Shown: in pieces, positions 1-9,030 of the stretch
Layout: every line of letters begins with the position of its first letter
Position numbering within the stretch: position 1 is the stretch's first letter
Source: Halobacteriales archaeon QH_10_65_19
GTDB lineage: Archaea > Halobacteriota > Halobacteria > Halobacteriales > Haloarculaceae
NCBI GenBank assembly: GCA_003022085.1
Contig: PXQK01000060.1
Span: forward strand, 1-9,030
Length of the DNA stretch: 9,030 bases
Direction of reading: 5' to 3'
Translations under genes and position numbers: made by a program
Notes under the pieces: generated by a model
Databases searched by the model: none
Told to the model about the DNA's origin: nothing
The model's input: the letters and a program-made list of their open reading frames with translations, nothing else

Positions 1-73
1 AGTACGACGAGGGAGTATTTTGTTAAGAGCATTGTTACGGGAGTAAGGCCGATCTTATGAGGTGGGTGAAGTA

Positions 74-94
74 CCTCGGGGTTGAGCCCCGAGG
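74..94. repeat. Perfect 8-bp hairpin
   Basis: CCTCGGGG at 74-81 pairs perfectly with CCCCGAGG at 87-94 around a 5-base loop (TTGAG). It lies outside any supported gene, about 60 bases beyond the stop of the cyclophilin gene. It could be a terminator, or the right-end hairpin of an IS200/IS605-type element lying mostly to the left of the window. The base pairing is seen directly; the role is inferred. Confidence 0.5.
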
Positions 95-127
95 CACTCT
101 GCCTGCTTTCTCTGTAGACCCCACGGC

Positions 128-149
128 AACCGGCCGTAGCCCTCCGGTT
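128..149 (-). terminator. Inverted repeat just after the cyclophilin stop
   Basis: AACCGG (128-133) and CCGGTT (144-149) form a 6-bp stem with a 10-base loop. It starts 5 bases beyond the TAA stop of the minus-strand cyclophilin gene. There is no strong T-run on the minus strand after it, so a terminator role is only plausible. Confidence 0.25.
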
Positions 150-153
150 CGGG

Positions 154-666
154 TTACCGGTGGATCTCAACGTTCTCCAGGTATACGTCCGTTTTGGGTT
201 TGTCGTTGCGGTCGGTTTCGACGTTGCCGACCTCCCTGACGACGTCCATGCCGTCGATCACCTCGCCGAAGACGGCGTGGCGGTCGTCGAGGTGTGGCTG
301 GGCGTCGAGCGTAATGAAAAACTGCGATCCGTTGGTGTCGGGGCCGCTGTTGGCCATCGAGACAATCCCGGGGCCGTCGTGTCGCAGGTCGTCGTGGAAC
401 TCGTCGTCGAACTCGTAGCCGGGGCCGCCGCGGCCGGTGCCGGTCGGGTCGCCGGTCTGGATCATGAACCCCTCGATAACGCGGTGGAACAGCACGTTGT
501 CGTACAGCGGGCCGTCCATCCGTTCGCCGGTCTCGGGGTGTGTCCACTCGCGCTCTCCGGTCGCCAACCCGACGAAGTTCTCGACCGTCCGGGGCGCTCT
601 CTCCTCGAACAGTTGGATCTCGATCTTTCCCTTCGACGTCTCGAGCGTCGCTGTCAGGTCGCTCAT
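154..666 (-). CDS. Peptidyl-prolyl cis-trans isomerase, cyclophilin type
   Basis: A single-domain cyclophilin of 170 residues that speeds cis-trans isomerisation of peptide bonds before proline during protein folding. There is no signal peptide or membrane segment, so it should be cytoplasmic. The catalytic signature is intact: F60-H61-R62 holds the catalytic Arg, followed by Q70-T71-G72-D73, then N112-G113-S114-Q115-F116-F117. The glycine-rich G76-G83 stretch and the H130-A131-V132-F133-G134 block also fit. The Trp that binds cyclosporin in human CypA falls at H125 here, so drug sensitivity is likely to be low. The length equals that of compact prokaryotic family members. The ATG at 664-666 gives a normal N-terminus, [20 protein letters not shown], with a GAAGGT stretch just before it. 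The gene is divergent from the transporter gene. Very confident in the family; the client proteins are unknown. Confidence 0.96.
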
Positions 667-737
667 ACCTTCAGTGGGCGCCCGAGGCTGAAATGCGTGC
701 TGCTTTCCGTTTCAGTTTCCAAAAACGTTCACACAAA

Positions 738-745
738 TTATATAT
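738..745 (+). promoter_or_regulatory. TATA box for the 767/795 start region
   Basis: TTATATAT lies in the short A+T-rich gap between the divergent cyclophilin and MFS genes. Its centre is about 26 bases before an ATG at 767-769, the spacing expected for a leaderless haloarchaeal transcript. With the same start point, the ATG at 795 would have a leader of about 28 bases without an obvious Shine-Dalgarno sequence. Confidence 0.6.
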
Positions 746-766
746 CTTCGTAAAAATGCGACATGC

Positions 767-944
767 ATGAGTTCGGAGAACGGCGAGATATATCATGCAC
801 GACGAGTGCGACGCAGAGTGGGTACGTCCGAAGCCGGCCCGCGACGCGATCGTGTCGGTGCTCACGGAGGTGACAGAGATCGAGGCGGAGACAGTCGACG
901 AGCTGGACACCTATCTCGACCCGGACGCTCTGCGGGCGGTCAAC
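767..944 (+). other. HalOD1-like N-terminal segment, possibly frameshifted
   Basis: In the transporter frame, residues 14-48 read PARDAIVSVLTEV, then VDELDTYLDPDALRAV. This matches the first half of the haloarchaeal output domain HalOD1 (pattern: variable helix, xELPPLYxxIDPDAL). The end of that domain is missing. The leaderless ATG at 767 lies in another frame and encodes MSSENGEIYHA, a typical start for HalOD1 proteins, before that frame degenerates into Arg-rich text. Removing one base (or adding two) between about 785 and 800 would join the two parts into one HalOD1 N-terminus. The sequence pattern is seen; the domain name comes from memory of the family, and the frameshift is inferred. 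Confidence 0.45.
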
Positions 945-2210
945 CGACAGGCGCTTTTCGGTCGACCCCGAACAGCCGCTGTGACTCCGAGCCGTCGGGA
1001 CCGGGCGGTGCTTTCGGGCGTCGTGTTCGCGGTGCTGTTCGCACAGGTGCTGCTGTACCCGGGGATTCCGGACCTCGTAGTGGCACTCGGTGGGACGCCG
1101 GCAGCGTGGGACGGCGACGTCGGTGCGATTCTGGACGCCGGCAAGTGGTTTCTGACCGTCGAATTCCTGGGTTTCGTGCTCTGTGCCGGCCTCTGGGGCG
1201 CGTTCAGCGACGCGACGGGCAGACGGACGCCACTGATCGTCGCCGGCGCAGTCGTCGGTGCTGCCGGCTACCTCTCACTCGGGGTGTTGGGTTCGTTCGG
1301 CACCGTCCCCTACGGGGGTATCCTCGCGGTCCGGTTTCTCCAGGGGGTTGCGACAATCGGCGCGTTCTCGCTCGCAATCACGACGCTGATGGACCTAGAG
1401 GGGGGCCAGGGCGCGAACATGGGTGCAGCGGGCCTCGCAATCGGGGGTGGGACCGCACTGGGTTCGCCCGTCGGCGGCGCGCTGTACAGCCTCGGCCCCC
1501 TCGTTCCCCTGTACGCCGCGGCCGCCGTGCTGATCGTCGTGGGGCTGCTCTCGATGCTCGCAACGGATCGGGCGCCGACCCCGGCCCGCCGGAGTCCGGC
1601 CGCGGTCCTGCGCGGGCTCCAGGGACGACCGTCGCTCGCTGTCCCCTTCGCGTTCGGCTTCGTCGACCGGCTCACGGCCGGCTTCTTCGCGCTCGTGGGG
1701 ACAGTCTACTTCCAGTCGGCGTTCGACCTCGGCGCCGGGGCGACAGGGGTTTTGCTCGGTGCGTTTTTCCTCCCGTTCGCGCTGCTGCAGTACCCGTTCG
1801 GCCGACTCTCGGACCGGATCGGCCGGGTGATCCCCGTCGCGGCCGGCTCCCTCGGTTACGGGTTCGCGGTGATCGGCGTCTACTACGCCCCGACCCCGCC
1901 GGCCGCGGGCGGCGCAATGCTGCTCGTCGGAGTGGTCGGCGCGCTTGTCGCCCCGGCGACGATGGCGCTGGTGTCTGATCTCGCTGCGCCAGAGCAACGC
2001 GGCGTGGCGATGGGCGGGTTCAACGTTTTCGGGAGCCTGGGCTTTCTGTCCGGGATTGTCGGCGGCGCGACGGTCGCCGGGGCTGTCGGGTTCCGGGCTG
2101 CGTTTTTCGCTGTCGGGTTTGCCGAGATTGCGCTCGCTGTTGTGCTGTTTCCGGTGTTGCTCCGGCTGGACGTTCCTGTCGGACGGGGCGAGTCCGTGGA
2201 TGGCGGGTAA
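795..2210 (+). CDS. MFS transporter with HalOD1-like N-terminal extension
   Basis: A major facilitator superfamily permease, probably a proton-coupled efflux pump; the substrate cannot be told. From residue 71 on there are about twelve hydrophobic segments. Both half-repeats carry the loop 2-3 signature motif A: G135-A-F-S-D139-A-T-G142-R143-R144 in the first half and G336-R-L-S-D340-R-I-G343-R344 in the second. Its 471 residues exceed the usual 390-410 because about 65 hydrophilic residues precede the first helix. Residues 14-48 resemble part of a HalOD1 domain. The ATG at 795 is the only in-frame ATG before the first helix. A GTG at 981 (V63) would give a standard-length transporter and may be the original or real start. 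The gene is convergent with the His-rich lipoprotein gene, with 37 bases between the stops. The MFS family is certain; the start is not. Confidence 0.85.
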   Translation: MHDECDAEWVRPKPARDAIVSVLTEVTEIEAETVDELDTYLDPDALRAVNRQALFGRPRTAAVTPSRRDRAVLSGVVFAVLFAQVLLYPGIPDLVVALGGTPAAWDGDVGAILDAGKWFLTVEFLGFVLCAGLWGAFSDATGRRTPLIVAGAVVGAAGYLSLGVLGSFGTVPYGGILAVRFLQGVATIGAFSLAITTLMDLEGGQGANMGAAGLAIGGGTALGSPVGGALYSLGPLVPLYAAAAVLIVVGLLSMLATDRAPTPARRSPAAVLRGLQGRPSLAVPFAFGFVDRLTAGFFALVGTVYFQSAFDLGAGATGVLLGAFFLPFALLQYPFGRLSDRIGRVIPVAAGSLGYGFAVIGVYYAPTPPAAGGAMLLVGVVGALVAPATMALVSDLAAPEQRGVAMGGFNVFGSLGFLSGIVGGATVAGAVGFRAAFFAVGFAEIALAVVLFPVLLRLDVPVGRGESVDGG

Positions 2211-2247
2211 CCGACCCCACCCTACTTCGCTCACTCTGACATCAGTA

Positions 2248-2784
2248 TCAGGCAACCACCTCGACGTGCAGCGGCGGTGAGAGCCACACCTCCTCGCCGT
2301 CGTGCAGGAGCTGTGCGTAGAGTACTCCTCTCCCCGCGGCGGTGCCGTGGACGGTGAGGATGTTCTCGAACACCTCGACCTCGATGAGGTCCGCCGGGGT
2401 GTCCTCGCCGCGCAGGACGTCGAACTGGTAGGGTGCGTCTCCGCCGATCGAGAGAGGCTCTCGCTCCCGATCGAGGGCGATAAACCGCAGCGATCGGAAG
2501 CTGTCGAGTGGCACCTCCAGGGGCTGTGCGTGCCAGTGGGCGTGCTCCTCGTGCCAGTGGACCTCGACGGCGCCCTTCTCGGTCTCGACGTCGACAAACC
2601 GTGCGGGAAAGACCGACGTCAGCGCCCGGCCGTTCAGCCGGAGATCCGGGTGGACCCCCTCCTCTTTTTCGTCCTCTGCGTTTTCTTCGTCGTCGCCACC
2701 CCCGCCGCCGCCCACACAGCCGGCGAGCGCCCCGGGAGCGAGGGCGGCCATCCCCGCCAGAACCCGTCGGCGAGTCGGGCTCAT
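2248..2784 (-). CDS. Small Tat lipoprotein with a His-rich cluster
   Basis: A 178-residue exported protein of unknown function. R5-R6-R7 followed by a hydrophobic stretch and the lipobox L20-A-G-C23 mark a Tat-exported lipoprotein anchored outside the membrane. A linker of six glycines and then mostly Asp/Glu (25-42) leads to a beta-rich domain (about 45-178). The centre of that domain carries H76-W-H78-E-E-H81-A-H83-W-H85, five His within ten residues, which is a likely binding site for Cu, Zn or Fe. Its end, LLHDGEEVWLSPPLHVEV, resembles a widespread group of uncharacterised small secreted proteins with WH-type motifs. It is the last gene of a three-gene operon. Its ATG overlaps the TGA of the preceding gene (ATGA), with GAGGT 3 bases upstream, so translation is probably coupled. 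A metal-chaperone role is inferred from the His cluster and from the P19-like neighbour. Confidence 0.85.
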   Translation of the reverse strand: MSPTRRRVLAGMAALAPGALAGCVGGGGGGDDEENAEDEKEEGVHPDLRLNGRALTSVFPARFVDVETEKGAVEVHWHEEHAHWHAQPLEVPLDSFRSLRFIALDREREPLSIGGDAPYQFDVLRGEDTPADLIEVEVFENILTVHGTAAGRGVLYAQLLHDGEEVWLSPPLHVEVVA

Positions 2785-3962
2785 GATACCTCGACGTCCA
2801 TCGGGGGCATATCGAGGAATGCGGTTTCGTAGCCCCGGTGGCGGGCAACCTGTGGCGGCGATTCGACGACCAGTTCCAGCCGGTCGCCCGCCGAGAGGTC
2901 GCCCGCGACCCCGTAGTGGTGCCCCAGATTGCTGTCGAGCGTCTGTACCAGTTCCCCCTCCAGCGCGCCGGCGACCGACAGCGCCATGTCCGCAAGCGGC
3001 ACACGGTTGTACGGCGTCCGCGGCGAGACCAGCAGGTAGCCCGCAGAGCCCTCGGTCAGCCGCGTCTCCGGGAGGTGCCTGACGACGAACGCCGCGTCAC
3101 CGCTGGTCGGTGTCCCGAGGGCCTGGCCCGGATACGCCTCCGCCGGCTGCAGCGACGAGAACGGCATCATCGTCTCCATGCCACCCATCCCGGCCATCGG
3201 TTCGAGCGCGCCGGGCTCGCCCCAGCGGTCCTCGGAGAGGTACTCGACGCCGTCGACGACCGACTCCTGGAACTCGCGGTCGAACTCGAACTCGAAGGTC
3301 ACGGTCTGTGGCTCCGCGAAGCGGTCGGCGAACGCCCCCGTCGTGCGGACGGTGTCGCTTCCGATCGGGGTCAGGTCGAACTCGACGGTGTAGGTGTCCT
3401 GCTCGGGCAGGCCGACGTTGTCCCCGAAGTGAAACCCCATGGTCTGGGAGATCATCGGCCACGGGGCCCGCTGGTCGACCAGGTCGCCGTCGCGCAGGAT
3501 CCGCACCTGGGACCCGGTATCGACCGGGAGCACCTCGCCGGTGTCGGCGTCCCAGACCGTCATCATCAGGTGGACGCCAGACAGATCCGGCGCCACCTCC
3601 TCGCGCTCTGTGCCGGTGACCAGCCAGAACTTGTGGGGGTAGGTGAGCATCGGCGTGACTGTGTACTCTCCGGCCTCGACCGGCGTGAGGTGCTCCATCG
3701 CTTCGCGGTGGGTCGGAAGGTACACCGCCTCGGGCGGGTTCTCGACCTCCGGGACGGTCGGCGCGTTCGAGTCCTCGAGGACGTCGGGCGAGGAGGGCTC
3801 GCCGTCAGTCTCACCGCCGTCACTGGGGTTCTCGTTGTTGCTGTTCTCGTCGCCATCGTCGCCGAGGCAGCCTGCGAGCGCGCCCGTGACGGCCACACTC
3901 GCCGCGAGAAACGCGCGTCTGGAAAGCGGGTTCGTCCTGCGTCCGGTAGGGTGTCGTGTCAT
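2781..3962 (-). CDS. Tat lipoprotein with P19/Fe2+-transport-like domain
   Basis: A 393-residue exported lipoprotein: twin Arg at 15-16, a hydrophobic stretch, lipobox L29-A-G-C32, then an acidic, Asn- and Ser-rich linker to about residue 70. Residues about 85-225 resemble the P19/FetP/Tp34 family (Pfam Iron_transport), whose bacterial members bind Cu and Fe outside the membrane and help Ftr1-type permeases. Key parts are TPMLTYPHKFWLV, LSGVHLMMTVWD, P167-W-P-M170 and G176-F-H178-F-G-D-N. The C-terminal part (about 290-393) has a similar layout ending in G347-H348-H349-Y-G, which suggests a second, diverged copy of the same fold. Between them lies a Met-rich stretch with Met at 256, 259, 262, 265 and 266, as in copper-handling proteins. 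It is the middle gene of the operon: 27 bases after the DyP-like gene and overlapping the next by 4. The family is likely; the metal is unknown. Confidence 0.82.
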   Translation of the reverse strand: MTRHPTGRRTNPLSRRAFLAASVAVTGALAGCLGDDGDENSNNENPSDGGETDGEPSSPDVLEDSNAPTVPEVENPPEAVYLPTHREAMEHLTPVEAGEYTVTPMLTYPHKFWLVTGTEREEVAPDLSGVHLMMTVWDADTGEVLPVDTGSQVRILRDGDLVDQRAPWPMISQTMGFHFGDNVGLPEQDTYTVEFDLTPIGSDTVRTTGAFADRFAEPQTVTFEFEFDREFQESVVDGVEYLSEDRWGEPGALEPMAGMGGMETMMPFSSLQPAEAYPGQALGTPTSGDAAFVVRHLPETRLTEGSAGYLLVSPRTPYNRVPLADMALSVAGALEGELVQTLDSNLGHHYGVAGDLSAGDRLELVVESPPQVARHRGYETAFLDMPPMDVEVS

Positions 3963-3989
3963 GAGTATCGTCTGAGCTGTGGGGTCCGT

Positions 3990-5252
3990 CTACGCCTCCG
4001 GCAGCGCACGGCTGTCGCGGGGCGGAATCAGAAAGTTGCCGCGCCGCTTTACGAAGATGTACTGGAGGATGCCGTTGTTGAGCCGCTGGCCGACGCCCTC
4101 GCCGGCGAGGTCCTCGCCCGCTATCGCCTCGCGTGCCCGGACGAAGTCGCCGATTGTCCGCCCCAGAGCCAGGAAATGCACACCGGGCACGTCGTTGTCG
4201 ACAGTGTTGAAATCCCGTCGCAGCAGCGGCGGCGTCCCGTCGGGGTCGCGGGCGCGGGCGGCCTTCTGGGCGTGGCCGACCATGCCGCGCTCGCGGGCGT
4301 ACTGTTCGGTCTGGTCGGCAATCTCGCCGGCAACTCCCGTCGACGTGCCGAGCTTCTCGCCGATGTCGCCGGCCAGTTTTTCCTCTGCGTGTTCCGGGCT
4401 GTAGATCTTCGAGACCCGCTGGAAGTGGTTATCCTGTTCGAACCACGTCTGTAGCTGTAGCGTGAGCGACTCGACGTGCATCGTCGTTCCCCCAGCGTAC
4501 GGACCGTTCCTGATTGTCACGCGGTCCTCGGGTGCCTGGCTCTCTGCGAACCCGGAGCGAAAGCCCATGAAAAACGGCGCCTCCTCGGGGATCGACTCGG
4601 GAACGCCGTCGAGGTCGGTGTACTCGGCCGGCAACCCGGGACCGACGAAGCCGGTCCGCCGCGGCTCGGCGCGCTCGAAAACGCCTGCCAGGGTCGCATC
4701 CATCGCGACGCTGTTTGGCTCCTCTATCTCGCCCAGTAGTGCCTCCTCTGCTTCTAGAACCACGGCGGGGTCCTCGCTAGCGAGGTGAACCATCGCGTCG
4801 AACCCGTCGAAGTCGGGCGATTCAAGCGTCGTGATCGCCTCGGGTTCGGGGAGTGGTGGTTCGACGCCGACCTGCGTGAAGTACGCTGGCGTGTAGCCGA
4901 CGGTGAACAGCAGTCCCTCGGGGTCGTAGGCGTAGGCACGTTCCAGCGACCGGAGCGCCGTCTCGACCGTTCCGCGGGCGTCGGTGCCGGGGTCGACCGA
5001 CAGGTCCAGGGGAACCAGCACGTGGTGTTCCGGCGGCAGCGGGTTCCCGTCGTCGTCCCGGCGGAGGACGTCGTTCCAGGCGTGCTGGCGGGCAGGCCGT
5101 TCTGCGGGGTCACCCGTCGGGACGGCTTCATCCTCCTCGCCGTCGCTGCCGGTGACGTCGAGACACGCCGAGAGCGCAGCTGTCCCGCCCGCGGCGACGA
5201 GACACCGGAGGTAGTCGCGTCTCTGGAGGTCGTCGGGATCGGGGAGATCCAT
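3990..5252 (-). CDS. Tat lipoprotein, divergent DyP-peroxidase-like (EfeB-like)
   Basis: A 420-residue exported protein. R11-R12-D-Y-L, a hydrophobic stretch and lipobox L27-S-A-C30 indicate Tat export and lipid anchoring. The body follows the two-half layout of dye-decolourising haem peroxidases. In the first half is GLLFTVGYTPAYF. In the second are G326-H327 (candidate proximal haem His), R345-R346 eighteen and nineteen residues later (the His-to-distal-Arg spacing known in DyP enzymes), G357-V-H-F-L-A-L-G-R365 and the C-terminal NFLIPPR. The distal Asp of the usual GFxDG motif is replaced: here G230-F-R-S233-G-F. Ordinary DyP peroxidase activity is therefore doubtful. EfeB, a DyP protein, works in ferrous-iron uptake, and the P19-like neighbour points the same way. 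It is the first gene of the operon; the ATG at 5250-5252 gives the complete Tat signal. Haem binding is inferred. Confidence 0.75.
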   Translation of the reverse strand: MDLPDPDDLQRRDYLRCLVAAGGTAALSACLDVTGSDGEEDEAVPTGDPAERPARQHAWNDVLRRDDDGNPLPPEHHVLVPLDLSVDPGTDARGTVETALRSLERAYAYDPEGLLFTVGYTPAYFTQVGVEPPLPEPEAITTLESPDFDGFDAMVHLASEDPAVVLEAEEALLGEIEEPNSVAMDATLAGVFERAEPRRTGFVGPGLPAEYTDLDGVPESIPEEAPFFMGFRSGFAESQAPEDRVTIRNGPYAGGTTMHVESLTLQLQTWFEQDNHFQRVSKIYSPEHAEEKLAGDIGEKLGTSTGVAGEIADQTEQYARERGMVGHAQKAARARDPDGTPPLLRRDFNTVDNDVPGVHFLALGRTIGDFVRAREAIAGEDLAGEGVGQRLNNGILQYIFVKRRGNFLIPPRDSRALPEA

Positions 5253-5277
5253 CTGCTTGCTGTTCGATTTCTACACT

Positions 5278-5287
5278 TTTTCATATT
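5278..5287 (-). promoter_or_regulatory. Possible TATA element of the lipoprotein operon
   Basis: On the minus strand AATATGAAAA lies about 26-35 bases before the ATG of the DyP-like gene, which would leave a leader of only a few bases. It is the only A+T-rich stretch between that gene and the mobile element. It is a weak match, chosen by position. Confidence 0.35.
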
Positions 5288-5334
5288 GCGGTCCCGTGCG
5301 CCGCCCGAACACACGCGGCGGGGACTTGACCTCC

Positions 5335-5356
5335 TCTCTGCCCTGAAGGGCGGAGA
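5335..5356. repeat. Right-end hairpin of the element
   Basis: Bases 5335-5343 pair with 5348-5356 over nine positions, one of them a G-T pair on the plus strand, around the loop TGAA. It starts 4 bases inside the terminal GTCAA (minus strand). In intact IS200/IS605 elements such a hairpin is the site recognised by TnpA and also part of the TnpB guide RNA. A second, overlapping hairpin (GATTCC 5355-5360 with GGAATC 5368-5373) follows directly. Confidence 0.65.
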
Positions 5357-5582
5357 TTCCTCCGTGGGGAATCCTGCCTGCCTGAGTCCCCCGGCTGTGA
5401 ACGTACGGGTTCGCTGACGCACCTTCAGCCCTCGAAGTGAGGGTGTGGCGTGTTGACTTGCTGTATCCGCTCGGTGTTGCCCTCCGTTCTGGAGTGGCAC
5501 TCACAGGCGTCCAGCACAGTGAGCACCAGGCCGGGCCATAGTGACTCAGGGAAGAAATAGAGGAATTCCGAAGGGGAAGCCC

Positions 5583-5674
5583 CCGGCTGCTCGGCTCGGG
5601 GGCCTCGCTGCAGTCCTCGCTCTCCGCACCGCCCGCTGCGGTCCTTACATCGGCCGCCGTCGCCGAGCAGCCGG
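5583..5674. repeat. 13-bp inverted repeat inside the element
   Basis: CCGGCTGCTCGGC (5583-5595) is the exact reverse complement of 5662-5674. The 66 bases between them contain a further small stem (ACCGC 5628-5632 with GCGGT 5638-5642). It abuts the long stem that begins at 5674. The pairing is seen directly; no function is known. Confidence 0.6.
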
Positions 5675-5763
5675 CCCCTTCCGGTCCCACCCATGTTCTT
5701 ACTTCAGTCGGCCATCGCACATCGGCCGGGGACACAGCCGACACGGGTGGGGTTGGAAGGGGC
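5674..5763 (+). repeat. 19-position stem with inner stem, candidate structured RNA
   Basis: GCCCCTTCC (5674-5682) pairs with GGAAGGGGC (5755-5763), and CCCACCC (5686-5692) with GGGTGGG (5745-5751). The three positions between them are G-U, G-U and U-G in a plus-strand RNA, but would be C-A or A-C mismatches in a minus-strand RNA. Inside the loop GTCGGC (5707-5712) pairs with GCCGAC (5737-5742). This favours a folded transcript of the plus strand. I do not recognise a known RNA family. Confidence 0.5.
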
Positions 5764-5779
5764 AGGTCGCTCGATCCAT

Positions 5780-5813
5780 CCCGGGCGTTCACGGCGAGAG
5801 CCGTGAGCTCGGG
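5780..5813 (+). repeat. Hairpin with GNRA-type loop
   Basis: TCACGGC (5789-5795) pairs with GCCGTGA (5800-5806) around the loop GAGA, a GNRA tetraloop on the plus strand. An outer stem CCCGGG (5780-5785) with CTCGGG (5808-5813, one G-U pair) continues it after a small bulge. It is part of the set of hairpins in the non-coding element. Confidence 0.5.
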
Positions 5814-5880
5814 AAGCTTCAACACGGCTGGGTTACCTCCTGGTCAGTTCCTCACAAACTTCTCCAAAGTACTACGGCCC

Positions 5881-5913
5881 GACTCCCCGGTTGCAGCCAC
5901 CGCTGGGGGAGTC
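5881..5913. repeat. 8-bp hairpin inside the element
   Basis: GACTCCCC (5881-5888) pairs perfectly with GGGGAGTC (5906-5913), with a possible inner CAG/CTG stem (5894-5896 with 5903-5905). The role is unknown. Confidence 0.5.
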
Positions 5914-6075
5914 CTATCGTGACATGCCAACTTGCTGCCGGTTGGGCTGGGAAGGTGTGTGAGTGTGAGTGTGCAGACCCACTCGTAGCCAGCTTGAGCA
6001 TGAGCAGGTTCCCCGCAGCAGCATGTCGCATGTCTACTATCATATTCTCTGTCGGGAAGTATAAGTGGTGGGACA

Positions 6076-6091
6076 CGAGGCTTTCGCCTTG
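6076..6091. repeat. Left-end hairpin of the element
   Basis: AGGC (6078-6081) and GCCT (6086-6089) pair around TTTC, extended by one G-T and one C-G pair to 6076-6091. It sits on the boundary pentamer TTGAC (6089-6093, plus strand). A TATA-like CTTATAC (6065-6059, minus strand) lies just inside and could drive a transcript through the element towards the lipoprotein operon. Confidence 0.45.
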
Positions 6092-6104
6092 ACTTTCCGT
6101 AACT

Positions 6105-6126
6105 TCGACGACGCCGGCCTCGTCGA
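6105..6126 (-). terminator. Hairpin after the SafE-like gene
   Basis: TCGACGA (6105-6111) pairs perfectly with TCGTCGA (6120-6126) around an 8-base loop. It starts 8 bases beyond the TAA stop of the minus-strand SafE-like gene. No clear T-run follows, so terminator function is uncertain. Confidence 0.35.
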
Positions 6127-6134
6127 GAGCAGGA

Positions 6135-6953
6135 TTACCCGGTGGGCATCCCGAGCGGATCCCAGAACGGCAGTCCGGGATGTGGGATGTGGTAGCCGAG
6201 GCTCATCAGGCCGTGAGCGAACAGCACGTAGCCCAGCGCCAGGAAGACGACGCCTAGCACGCGGTGGAGGCGGCGCCGGTGGACCGCGTCGACACTCTCG
6301 ATGATGGTTCCGTAGGCGAACACCGCAGGGATGGTCCCGAGGCCGAGCGCGGCGAGCGCGACGGCGCCGGCGACCGCCGAGCCGCTGGCGAACGCGTAGA
6401 GGTATGCCGGGTAGAGGATCGGACACGGCAGCAGGCCGTGCATCGCGCCGAGACCGACGATGCCCGGGCCGCTGGCCAGCCGCTCGACCCAGTCGGTCAG
6501 CCGGCTCATCACCCGGCCGGTTCCCGGCAACTGTATTCCGACGGAAATCCGGCCGAGCACGTAGTGGCCGCCGATCACGATCACCGCCGCGCCGATGCCG
6601 ACGCCGACAACCCCGCGGACAGTCTCTGCCGTCGCCGTCACCTCGCCGAGACCGAGAAAGACCAGCCCGCCGAGTGCGCCCATCAGCGCGCCGAGCAGCG
6701 TGTAGCTCGTTGCCCTGCCGACGTTGAACAGCGCGTGCTGGCGGACCTCGAACGGCGTGAGGTGCGATCCGCGACCGCGGCCCCGCTTGCGGTGGCCGGC
6801 AGCCTCTGTGCCCCCGTCGGCCCGTTTCGGGTCCATCCTGCTCGCGTAGATCGTCACGAGCGGGCCGCACATCCCGATGCAGTGGGCACCGCCGAGTAGT
6901 CCGACCAGAAAGAACAGCGCGACGTCGGTTCCAAAGATCGTTGACAGTGCCAT
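6135..6953 (-). CDS. SafE/TauE-like (DsbD_2-type) membrane protein with CxxxC
   Basis: A 272-residue integral membrane protein with about six helices (roughly 11-33, 77-102, 111-133, 161-190, 193-218, 232-256). The first helix holds G21-G-A-H24-C25-I-G-M-C29-G-P, the hallmark of the COG2836 / sulfite exporter TauE/SafE group (related to DsbD_2 and UreH). The matching helix in the second half holds H172-G-L-L-P-C177-P. A basic, His-containing loop (39-73) separates helices 1 and 2. Bacterial relatives sit near copper ATPases and cytochrome oxidase assembly genes; transport of metal or reducing power is proposed, but the exact reaction is not settled. It lies on the same strand as the downstream Tat lipoprotein operon, now separated by the IS-like element, and is divergent from the cupin gene. 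A perfect 10-bp inverted repeat touches its ATG. The family is sure; the substrate is not. Confidence 0.85.
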   Translation of the reverse strand: MALSTIFGTDVALFFLVGLLGGAHCIGMCGPLVTIYASRMDPKRADGGTEAAGHRKRGRGRGSHLTPFEVRQHALFNVGRATSYTLLGALMGALGGLVFLGLGEVTATAETVRGVVGVGIGAAVIVIGGHYVLGRISVGIQLPGTGRVMSRLTDWVERLASGPGIVGLGAMHGLLPCPILYPAYLYAFASGSAVAGAVALAALGLGTIPAVFAYGTIIESVDAVHRRRLHRVLGVVFLALGYVLFAHGLMSLGYHIPHPGLPFWDPLGMPTG

Positions 6954-6983
6954 CTATGTGGAGTTGGGACCGTCTCCACATAG
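6954..6983. promoter_or_regulatory. Perfect 10-bp inverted repeat, candidate operator
   Basis: CTATGTGGAG (6954-6963) and CTCCACATAG (6974-6983) are exact reverse complements separated by 10 bases. The near arm touches the ATG of the SafE-like gene (6951-6953). The far arm lies 21-30 bases before it, where the TATA box of a leaderless gene belongs; ACTATGTGGA is the only candidate there. A dimeric regulator bound across both arms, with centres two helix turns apart, could block the promoter. A hairpin in a short leader is the alternative. Confidence 0.6.
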
Positions 6984-7046
6984 TCCCGTCGGTGCGGGCG
7001 ACGACGCGGGGGGACCGGGCGTGCTGTTCGCCACGGGAGGTGCCGG

Positions 7047-7055
7047 TATTTATAC
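7047..7055 (+). promoter_or_regulatory. TATA box of the cupin gene
   Basis: TATTTATAC is centred about 27 bases before the ATG at 7078, the spacing of a leaderless haloarchaeal transcript. It supports this ATG over longer upstream reading in the same frame. Confidence 0.7.
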
Positions 7056-7077
7056 TCGACACGGAACAAGCAGGGGT

Positions 7078-7416
7078 ATGTCACTGGATAGATTCAGTAC
7101 CGGGAACGAAGAACTCGATCCCGGCGTTGGCGAGGTCGAAACCGCGGAACTGGTCGTCGAGGACGACGTACTCGTGAAAGCGTTCGCGCTCGGCCCGGGA
7201 TCGACACTCGAACCACACGAACACGAGGGCAGCACCAACGTGTTTCACGTCCTCGAGGGTACCGTCACCGTCCTGCAGGGCGAGGAGGACGGCGAACGCG
7301 AGGACGTCGATGCGCCCGGCGTGGTGTTGCACGAGCGCGGCGTCGTCCACGGCGCCCGCAACGACACCGACGAAACTGTCATTTTCACCGCGAGCCTCTC
7401 TCCCCTGCCCTCCTGA
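7078..7416 (+). CDS. Small single-domain cupin protein
   Basis: A 112-residue acidic cytoplasmic protein with one conserved cupin barrel. Motif 1 is P46-H47-E-H49, then N54-V-F-H57-V-L-E60-G61. Motif 2 is P80-G-V-V-L, then G88-V-V-H91-G-A-R-N95. H47, H49 and H91 could hold a metal; the usual acidic ligand of motif 1 falls at or near T53-N54, so the site may be a three-His centre or inactive. Cupins of this size include dioxygenases, sugar-binding proteins and sensors, so no reaction can be assigned. The start is fixed by a TATA box 27 bases upstream; the frame stays open further left, but that part crosses the promoter and the SafE-like gene. It shares a 124-base divergent promoter region with that gene, so joint regulation through the 10-bp inverted repeat is possible but not shown. 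Confidence 0.85.
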   Translation: MSLDRFSTGNEELDPGVGEVETAELVVEDDVLVKAFALGPGSTLEPHEHEGSTNVFHVLEGTVTVLQGEEDGEREDVDAPGVVLHERGVVHGARNDTDETVIFTASLSPLPS

Positions 7417-7434
7417 TACTGTCGGAGAAAAATC

Positions 7435-7455
7435 CTGGCGGATTTTCGCCGCCAG
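7435..7455 (+). terminator. Hairpin after the cupin gene
   Basis: CTGGCGG (7435-7441) pairs perfectly with CCGCCAG (7449-7455) around ATTTTCG, 18 bases after the TGA stop. On the minus strand the AAAAA just before it reads as TTTTT and could also end transcripts from the aminotransferase side. Confidence 0.45.
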
Positions 7456-7492
7456 TATTGCGACGAGTTGCCGATGCGTCCGGGCGCTCATC

Positions 7493-7510
7493 ACCGGCCT
7501 GTCGGCCGGT
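7493..7510. terminator. Second hairpin between convergent genes
   Basis: ACCGGCC (7493-7499) pairs perfectly with GGCCGGT (7504-7510) around TGTC, followed on the plus strand by TCTT and, further on, TTTT at about 7559. It lies between the converging cupin and aminotransferase genes and may serve either. Confidence 0.4.
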
Positions 7511-7595
7511 TCTTCGCGCCCTCTGTTTCCGACAACTGTCACGTAAGCTGTTCACGTACTTTTGTCTGTCAGTATGAATCACTATCAGATGCGCC

Positions 7596-8753
7596 TTACA
7601 GGAGGTCGTACTCGTCGAGCCGGTCGACAGCCTCCCGCAGCCGTTCCGTGCTGTTCGCGTACGAGAGTCGGGCGTAGCCCGGCGTCCCGAACGCACTCCC
7701 CGGGACGGTCGCGACGTGTGCGTCGCTGATTGCCTCGTCGCACCACGCCTGGTCGTCGTCGGCGACGGGCAGCATCATGTAGAACGCGCCCTGGGGTTCC
7801 ACGACGTCGACGCCGCGGTCGGCGAACTCCGCGAGCAGCATGTCTCGGCGCTTTTCGAAGGCGGCGCGCATCTCCTCGACAGCCTTGTCGGTGTTCTCGA
7901 GCGCTTCGACCCCCGCGTGCTGGACGAAGCTGGTCGCACACGAGACCGAGTGGCCGTGGATCTTCCCGGCCTGCTCGACGAGCGACTCGGGGCCGGCGAA
8001 GTAGCCGAGCCGCCAGCCGGTCATCGCGTAGGCCTTCGAGAACCCGTTGAGGGTGATCGTCCGGTCTTCCATCCCCGGGAGCGTCCCCAGGCTCGTCGCG
8101 GTCGTGTCGTAGGTGATCTTCTTGTAGATTTCGTCGGAGATGACCGTCACGTCGTGCTCGACCGCGAGGTCGCGGACCCCCTCGAGGGCGGCGTCCGAGT
8201 AGACCGCGCCGTGGGGGTTGCCCGGCGAGTTGACCACCAGCAGCGTCGTCTCGTCGGTCACGACGCCCGCGAGGTCGTCGAGCGCCGGTTCGAGCGCGAA
8301 GTCGTAGCGGGCGGTGTCGACCCGCGACACGTCGCCGCCGGCGATCTTCGCCATCGCCTCGTAGGAGACCCACGCCGGGTCGAGCAGTACGGTCTCGTCG
8401 CCGTCGTCGATCAGCGCCTGGAACGCCTCGAACAGCGCCTGCTTGCCGCCGGGCGTGACCATGATGTTCTCCGGTTCGTACTGGTCGAGGCCGTCGTCGG
8501 CGAGTTTCTCGGCGATCGCTTCGCGCAGTGCCGGAATGCCAGGCGACGGTGTGTAGCCGGTCTCGCCAGCAGCCAGGGCCTCCTCCGCGGCGTGCTTGAT
8601 GTTTTCGGGCGTGTCGAAGTCCGGTTCACCGACGCTCAGGTCGACGACGTCGACGCCCTCGGCCTCCAGTTTTGCCGCCGTGTTACTGATCGCGAGCGTG
8701 GCGCTCGGCGACACTCTCTTTACCCGTTCCGCGAACGTGAGTTGTGCTGTCAT
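7596..8753 (-). CDS. Class I PLP-dependent aminotransferase (aspartate type)
   Basis: A 385-residue fold-type I aminotransferase of the aspartate family, moving an amino group between an amino acid and a 2-oxo acid; cytoplasmic. The PLP site is complete: N179-P-H-G (in place of the common NPTG), D207-E-I-Y210, S239-K240-A-Y-A-M-T-G-W-R with the Schiff-base Lys, and R362-L-S-Y with the carboxylate-binding Arg. The N-terminal VDLSVGEPDFDTP and GETGYTPSPGIPALREAIA blocks are typical. The length is normal. The gene starts 26 bases after the ribH stop on the same strand, so the two are probably one operon. No Shine-Dalgarno sequence is seen at its ATG. The substrate cannot be read from the sequence; aspartate/2-oxoglutarate or a broad range is the default. 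A specific riboflavin-pathway role is unproven. Confidence 0.93.
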   Translation of the reverse strand: MTAQLTFAERVKRVSPSATLAISNTAAKLEAEGVDVVDLSVGEPDFDTPENIKHAAEEALAAGETGYTPSPGIPALREAIAEKLADDGLDQYEPENIMVTPGGKQALFEAFQALIDDGDETVLLDPAWVSYEAMAKIAGGDVSRVDTARYDFALEPALDDLAGVVTDETTLLVVNSPGNPHGAVYSDAALEGVRDLAVEHDVTVISDEIYKKITYDTTATSLGTLPGMEDRTITLNGFSKAYAMTGWRLGYFAGPESLVEQAGKIHGHSVSCATSFVQHAGVEALENTDKAVEEMRAAFEKRRDMLLAEFADRGVDVVEPQGAFYMMLPVADDDQAWCDEAISDAHVATVPGSAFGTPGYARLSYANSTERLREAVDRLDEYDLL

Positions 8754-8779
8754 TGTCAGTCGATGGTGGGTCGTAGTTG

Positions 8780-9030
8780 TCAGTCAGCTTCTTCGAGTGC
8801 ATCGGTCGTGTCGATGGCGCTGTCGACAGCAGTCGCGCCGTGGTCGACCCGCGCCCGCGCCTCGTCGTGGCTCATGCCCGGGCCGATGATGCCGAGCGCG
8901 ACCGGTGTGTCCCGGTCGAGGCTGACGTCGGTCAGCCCCTGTGCGGCGGCGTCGGCGATCACCTGGTCGTGGTCCGTGTCACCGGTGATGATCGCGCCCA
9001 GCGCGACCACCGCGTCGATCCCCTCTCGTC
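8780..9030 (-). CDS. ribH: 6,7-dimethyl-8-ribityllumazine synthase, C-terminal part
   Basis: The last 82 residues of lumazine synthase; the N-terminal part lies beyond the right edge. The enzyme joins 5-amino-6-ribitylamino-uracil with 3,4-dihydroxy-2-butanone 4-phosphate, the penultimate step of riboflavin synthesis. Visible hallmarks are VVALGAIITGDTDHDQVI, in which GDTDH carries the catalytic His, then QGLTDVSLDRDTPVALGIIGPGM, the conserved segment that lines the active site of the neighbouring subunit. The acidic end (DTTDALEEAD) fits a haloarchaeon. It lies upstream of the aminotransferase gene, 26 bases apart on the same strand. The reading frame continues to the window edge without a stop, so the true start is outside. 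High confidence. Confidence 0.93.
   Translation of the reverse strand, partial: REGIDAVVALGAIITGDTDHDQVIADAAAQGLTDVSLDRDTPVALGIIGPGMSHDEARARVDHGATAVDSAIDTTDALEEAD

Follow-up and report, generated by a model that had tools for sequence, protein, structure and literature searches.

Two surface proteins that occur together across haloarchaea and probably handle copper or iron without a bacterial-type iron pump

What does a haloarchaeon do with a dye-decolorizing peroxidase (DyP)-like protein and a P19-like protein, both predicted to sit on the outside of its membrane, when their bacterial counterparts belong to different uptake systems? The question arose at a 9,030-nt stretch of Halobacteriales archaeon QH_10_65_19 (assembly GCA_003022085.1, contig PXQK01000060.1, positions 1 to 9,030; hereafter the window), where a SafE-like membrane protein, a DyP/EfeB-like protein, a P19-like protein with His and Met sites and a His-cluster protein are encoded between positions 2248 and 6953. 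The original prediction placed the four genes in one operon that could merge EfeUOB with an Ftr1/FetM-type system into an uptake or redox system for iron or copper, with no Ftr1 permease in view. An open reading frame (ORF) check of the window confirmed the four minus-strand genes and their coordinates, and the first three identities were borne out by a DsbD_2 match (Pfam PF13386, 160.8 bits), a DyP fold and a P19 domain. All three predicted lipoproteins, which are putative substrates of the twin-arginine translocation (Tat) pathway, show an RR stretch at the N terminus together with a Cys that resembles that of a lipobox.

A class-wide pair of families

The DyP-like protein (3990-5252, minus strand) belongs to Pfam family DUF7405. 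The P19-like protein (2781-3962, minus strand) consists of a P19 domain at about residues 87-236, matched by Pfam Iron_transport, followed by a linker and a DUF7350 domain. Profile searches of 242 haloarchaeal genomes of the class detected DUF7405 in 213 and DUF7350 in 207. Both families were present in 206 genomes, DUF7405 alone in seven, DUF7350 alone in one and neither in 28 (Fisher p 5e-29, uncorrected for kinship). For these two of the four families, the co-occurrence which the original prediction had proposed to look for is borne out. The DUF7405-DUF7350 pair is class-wide in haloarchaea. In the same searches FTR1 and EfeO-type M75 were found in none of the 242 genomes, with positive E. 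coli controls for both, and FTR1 was likewise absent from 44 DUF7405 genomes; the lack of an Ftr1 permease in the window thus extends to all 242 genomes searched.

The pairing also held at the level of individual loci. We compared 60 loci, picked from the best-scoring DUF7405 matches rather than at random, with 40 other stretches from 40 of the same genomes, one of which itself holds a DUF7405 gene. The simple filter used as gene caller undercalls DUF7405 genes, and the enrichment figures use six-frame counts. P19 was present in 48 of these 60 loci, in 52 of a set of 66 loci, in seven of 10 plasmid loci and in none of the 40 controls. Of 122 called loci, 66 have the P19 gene directly downstream of the DyP-like gene and in the same orientation, and 29 have it in other near arrangements; it was unseen in the fetched stretch of the remaining 27, some of which end at contig ends. 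When 52 of the 60 loci were grouped by DyP identity, 25 of the 29 groups at 80% and all 13 groups at 70% retained the P19 partner. We conclude that the link between the DyP-like and the P19-like protein is strong.

Heme and metal sites of the two proteins

The DUF7405 protein has a DyP/EfeB fold, with a fold model that is poor in its second half, and a single-sequence Protein Data Bank (PDB) search with it matched no DyP. In an alignment of the 121 called proteins (of 122) that passed a length filter, the axial H327 and the distal R345 and R346 were present in 121/121, aligned with EfeB H329, R347 and R348, and a lipobox-like Cys was equally retained. The catalytic Asp of the GXXDG motif, present in 10/10 reference DyPs, was found in 0/121 DUF7405 proteins; the column of EfeB D235 holds Ser in 81, Ala in 34, Asn in five and Val in one, the window residue being S233. 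DUF7405 would be a heme-binding protein. In DtpA, replacement of the Asp by Ala is reported to lower the rate of compound I formation from ~10^7 to 4x10^3 M^-1 s^-1 (PMC8463360).

Two side observations concern this family. Distant DUF7405 proteins (~39-42% identical; loci L059, L060, L061, L063 and L074) are encoded near Mo-oxidoreductase-like, iron-sulfur or TorD-like genes, and judging from these neighbours a second function within the family is possible. In five further loci (L040, L044, L045, L047 and L048) a large secreted protein is encoded upstream of DUF7405, and its sequence reads like a 5'-nucleotidase/metallophosphatase.

The product of 2781-3962 has a P19 fold and shares the PM....GxH[FY]GxN core, and a single-sequence PDB search with it matched no P19. 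Of 110 profile matches, 106 passed the length filter of the alignment, and in all 106 the residues H131, M133, M170, M175 and H178 were invariant. M170 and H178, in the core PMxxxxGxH, align with the Met and His of FtrA; the column of FtrA H151 corresponds to R214 here and holds Arg in 82/106, with His not among its six commonest residues. The acidic residues of P19 have no conserved counterparts at the positions aligned with them, and the invariant set consists of His and Met. M133 forms part of an HxM motif in 106/106 proteins, and the PDB alignment ends short of the place of the HxE motif (P19 E44, FetP E46). The linker between the P19 and DUF7350 domains is rich in His plus Met (19.4% vs 5.1%); across the P19-like proteins it is either His-rich or Met-rich, being short and Met-rich in the window. 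The linkers of loci L054, L019 and L016 are extreme and pack as many as 28 His into less than 100 residues.

Gene order and companion genes

The DyP-like and P19-like genes are 27 bp apart and the P19-like gene overlaps the following gene by 4 bp, but the DsbD_2 gene (6135-6953, minus strand) lies 882 bp upstream of the DyP-like gene. Because of this gap (5253-6134) we rejected a four-gene operon as the genes now stand; only the three lipoprotein genes are tightly packed. In L001 and L043, which carry the closest DUF7405 proteins of the 66-locus set (80 and 81% identity), the gap between the DsbD_2 and DUF7405 genes is 95 bp and 94 bp, respectively, and the DyP-proximal end of the gap, including the stretch GCAATATGAAA, is alike in the window, L001 and L043. 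Parts of the gap have counterparts in 11 haloarchaeal plasmid records, and in three of these records the match falls at an annotated transposase or TnpB gene. The gap also contains inverted repeats, including a palindrome with arms at 5664-5696 and 5741-5773, an HgcC-like match (5313-5426, minus strand; 25.4 bits, below gathering) and a weak sot0042-like piece. We take it for the trace of a mobile element that inserted into and broke up an ancestral gene order, presumably the right-end remnant of a TnpB/IS1341-type element with a second element inside; the DyP gene would have retained its own promoter despite the insertion.

The DsbD_2 protein is a CcdA/SafE-like membrane protein whose CIGMC motif lies at residue 25 and whose PCP motif lies at residue 176. 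Among nine relatives encoded near DUF7405, PCP was present in 9/9 and CxxxC in 8/9, the ninth being a shorter ORF. The family was found in 7/66 loci, in one of the 10 plasmid loci, in 1/60 loci and in 1/40 controls, and it recurs beside DUF7405 in differing gene orders (L030 and L072). Its membership in the CcdA/DsbD_2 family of thiol-electron conveyors fits the suggested role of an electron supplier.

The third packed gene (2248-2784, minus strand), which follows the P19-like gene, encodes a 178-aa putative Tat lipoprotein with an HxH..HWH motif and no Pfam match. It has eight relatives in the protein set; in a 17-row alignment H76, H78, W84 and H85 never vary, and H83 hardly does. A PDB search with the profile gave a best E of 0.83. 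We limited the count to 10 clustered members, the window and nine of the 66 loci, because profile matches in L030, L088 and L006 (a second match there) were assigned by Pfam to NosL, thioredoxin and DUF4382. In 24 loci (L015-L034 and others) a cohesin-domain surface protein takes the place of this lipoprotein as third gene, as in L032, where the gene after the P19-like gene (12696-13475, plus strand) matches PF00963 with 41.7 bits.

Convergent with the module lies a gene for a major facilitator superfamily (MFS) permease (795-2210, plus strand; MFS_1, 114.1 bits), a candidate partner that the original prediction did not name. It is 54-59% identical over at least 333 aa to 18 members of an MFS family found in 21 loci, and three further members match it in two pieces. 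As its homologues are absent from the 66-locus set, the nearest relatives of the window included, we regard a transport role in the module as a lead only. A copper-importer motif found no support: the residues conserved to at least 90% in 21 sequences, an alignment that leaves out L099, include four Met and no His or Cys. The rest of the window encodes a cyclophilin (154-666, minus strand), a cupin (7066-7416, plus strand) and an aminotransferase (7596-8753, minus strand), all from Pfam, and ends in a truncated ORF (8780-9028, minus strand) that clusters with a gene which, in relatives, precedes the aminotransferase gene, and whose product reads like a small lumazine-synthase-type protein. Searches of the window detected no tRNA and, in Rfam, no family at or above its gathering threshold. 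A defence role was not kept, as a PADLOC search with the four proteins gave no match.

Copper, iron or neither

The neighbourhoods of the pair were examined for genes that might tell its task. In the 60-locus set, homologues of the MFS permease (21 vs 0 in the controls), DsbA (15 vs 0), SCO1 (10 vs 0) and TlpA (9 vs 0) were enriched, and any of five copper markers was present in 15/60 loci compared with 3/40 controls (p 0.02). ZIP-like (3 vs 0) and NosL (1 vs 0) genes were not enriched, and of the nearby transporters that the original prediction had suggested looking for, neither ZIP-like genes nor P1B-ATPases (4/60 vs 2/40) differed significantly from controls, Ftr1 being absent from all 242 genomes. 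In groups of 80% DyP identity the enriched genes were counted in five (MFS), four (DsbA), two (SCO1) and two (TlpA) of 29. DsbA, TlpA and MFS genes were found in 0/66 loci of the second set, and SCO1 in 0/10 plasmid loci. Single loci add detail: NosL, SCO1, P19, DyP and DsbD_2 all occur in L030; on Haloarcula marismortui pHMA155 the pair is followed 4 to 8 kb on by a heavy-metal P-type ATPase and a cation diffusion facilitator (CDF) transporter; and in Halorubrum sp. CBA1229 multicopper oxidases, plastocyanin/azurin, a P-type ATPase, a CDF transporter and a metal transporter gene with a weak ZIP match are present, with a SafE-type gene adjoining the DyP gene. A stretch of Salarchaeum japonicum resembles the latter and has two 'iron transporter' genes. 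The annotation of six other plasmid stretches names no metal exporter or copper chaperone; two of these six carry a cytochrome oxidase subunit gene, and Mo/W enzyme genes lie in plasmid stretch L074. The informative neighbourhoods, which come from few independent lineages, favour copper and thiol redox over iron import.

The closest known parallel is the Streptomyces lividans sco-ecuc-SLI_4212-dtpA operon, in which DtpA is proposed to oxidise Sco-bound Cu(I) (PMC4736821). Like the module, this operon combines a Tat-exported DyP-fold protein with proteins that bind metal outside the cytoplasm and with a candidate metal transporter, and SCO1 stands beside the DyP gene in some haloarchaeal loci. 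DtpA, a class I/A DyP, is described as keeping the distal Asp and as a fast peroxidase, unlike DUF7405; P19 or DUF7350 is not named for the operon in the text available from that source, and SCO1 is missing from the window and from most haloarchaeal loci. We therefore suggest that the module may work like this type of copper trafficking operon and do not file it as a member. With EfeB of EfeUOB the DyP-like protein shares the fold, the axial His, the Arg and a Tat signal; with the FetMP/FtrABCD systems the P19-like protein shares the P19 fold and its core, and some lineages have thiol-redox partner genes as those systems do. Since FTR1 (EfeU in EfeUOB) and M75 (EfeO) were found in 0/242 genomes, membership in either system was rejected, and the proposed merger of the two is not supported: in addition, the catalytic Asp is missing, the site of the P19-like protein differs from those of FtrA, FetP and P19, the FtrA H151 column being mostly Arg, and the protein has an extra DUF7350 domain and a metal-binding-type linker. 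A Met/His site outside the cytoplasm is also reported for PCuAC copper chaperones (PMC6696091), whose fold and family differ, so that the likeness is confined to ligand type.

Taken together, the surface protein pair probably handles copper or iron without a bacterial-type iron pump. Of the two metals we favour copper handling on the outer membrane face, over iron uptake, as the task of this class-wide module, a tentative choice held at somewhat less than even confidence and made by analogy with DtpA. Several observations weigh against it. P1B-ATPase, multicopper oxidase (3 vs 1), plastocyanin (3 vs 0) and DtxR (2 vs 1) genes were not enriched in the 60-locus set, nor was DsbD_2, and no SCO1, ATPase or oxidase gene is in view in the window. 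The 66-locus set holds a single SCO1 and a single NosL gene, both in L030, and no gene for a P1B-ATPase, multicopper oxidase or plastocyanin; because this set is nearly devoid of copper markers, we lowered our confidence slightly. Any copper marker was present in only 5/29 groups at 80% and 2/13 at 70% DyP identity, so that few independent lineages stand behind the copper link. No P19 was detected in L057-L064, four of which adjoin Mo-oxidoreductase-type genes. Finally, the matching of M133 with P19 E44 and FetP E46 is a presumed register, unproved by alignment.

Iron acquisition, in which the P19-like protein would bind iron along with copper, the DyP-like protein would oxidise Fe(II) or extract heme iron, and an unlinked permease, MFS or other, would import it, is in our estimate a less likely explanation. 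It has the Pfam name Iron_transport and the label 'iron transporter' on DUF7350 proteins in several records in its favour, and two plasmid stretches contribute a ZIP-like gene and regulators of DtxR type. P19, FetP and EfeB are reported to work in bacterial iron uptake (PMC10783030, PMC6083913, PMC8197335), the Campylobacter P19 cluster likewise includes thioredoxins (PMC10783030, PMC6083913), and iron keeps its place among the candidates because P19 itself is described as a copper protein in the periplasm that belongs to a system for iron uptake (PMC8267372). However, FTR1 and M75 are absent from all 242 genomes, the acidic P19 residues are unconserved where aligned and an all-His/Met set is invariant, the distal Asp is missing from DUF7405, and the annotations of the plasmid stretches name no siderophore or iron ATP-binding cassette gene. 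An envelope stress or redox module with no dedicated metal, in which DUF7405 would be a heme sensor, an electron carrier or a slow detoxifier, for instance of the chlorite dismutase kind, and the P19-like protein would store or buffer metals, is unlikely in our judgement, even though an Arg without Asp resembles the distal side reported for chlorite dismutase (PMC7611857), DsbA, TlpA and DsbD_2 are neighbours, and DUF7405 without P19 lies beside Mo-oxidoreductase-type genes; the P19 partner is kept across nearly all DyP groups, which argues for a metal task. That the two proteins are mere neighbours with separate functions is highly improbable: the 27 called loci in which P19 was unseen, some cut by contig ends, stand against a pair that persists in several gene orders, on chromosomes and plasmids, with 206 genomes holding both families, eight only one and 28 neither.

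For copper handling, the following scheme can be drawn. The P19-like/DUF7350 lipoprotein would capture copper, probably Cu(I), in its His/Met site and its Met- or His-rich linker. The adjacent DUF7405 protein, a predicted heme protein of DyP fold without the peroxide-deprotonating Asp, could serve as a slow oxidase of metals, or as an electron relay between Cu(I) and Cu(II), and not as a fast peroxidase. CcdA-type DsbD_2 proteins, DsbA/TlpA thioredoxins, SCO1 or NosL may, in some lineages, set the redox state or accept the copper, and the HxH..HWH lipoprotein might serve as an additional metal binder. We infer heme binding, the identity of the metal, the direction of its flow, the redox chemistry and the partnership of MFS or DsbD_2 proteins. 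A bolder version, with the Asp-less DyP having abandoned fast peroxide chemistry in the course of haloarchaeal evolution to become a surface oxidase or relay for Cu(I) (or Fe(II)) that loads or unloads the all-His/Met P19-like protein, and with the MFS permease replacing FTR1 as importer or exporter, seems to us unlikely as a whole.

In a literature search whose coverage left out most subscription papers, no paper named DUF7405 or DUF7350 and none of the titles listed dealt with haloarchaeal dye-decolorizing peroxidases; the accessible portions of work on iron, copper and denitrification in haloarchaea made no mention of the two families. Both are Pfam families of unknown function, yet they occur together in 206 of the 242 haloarchaeal genomes. 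The laboratory organism Haloferax volcanii, used as a control in these searches, also has both, which makes the question testable. If the proposed reading is true, a function would be assigned to two common orphan families, a natural Asp-less clade would be at hand for asking what the aspartate of DyPs does, and the pair would bear on how haloarchaea handle extracellular copper or iron without FTR1.

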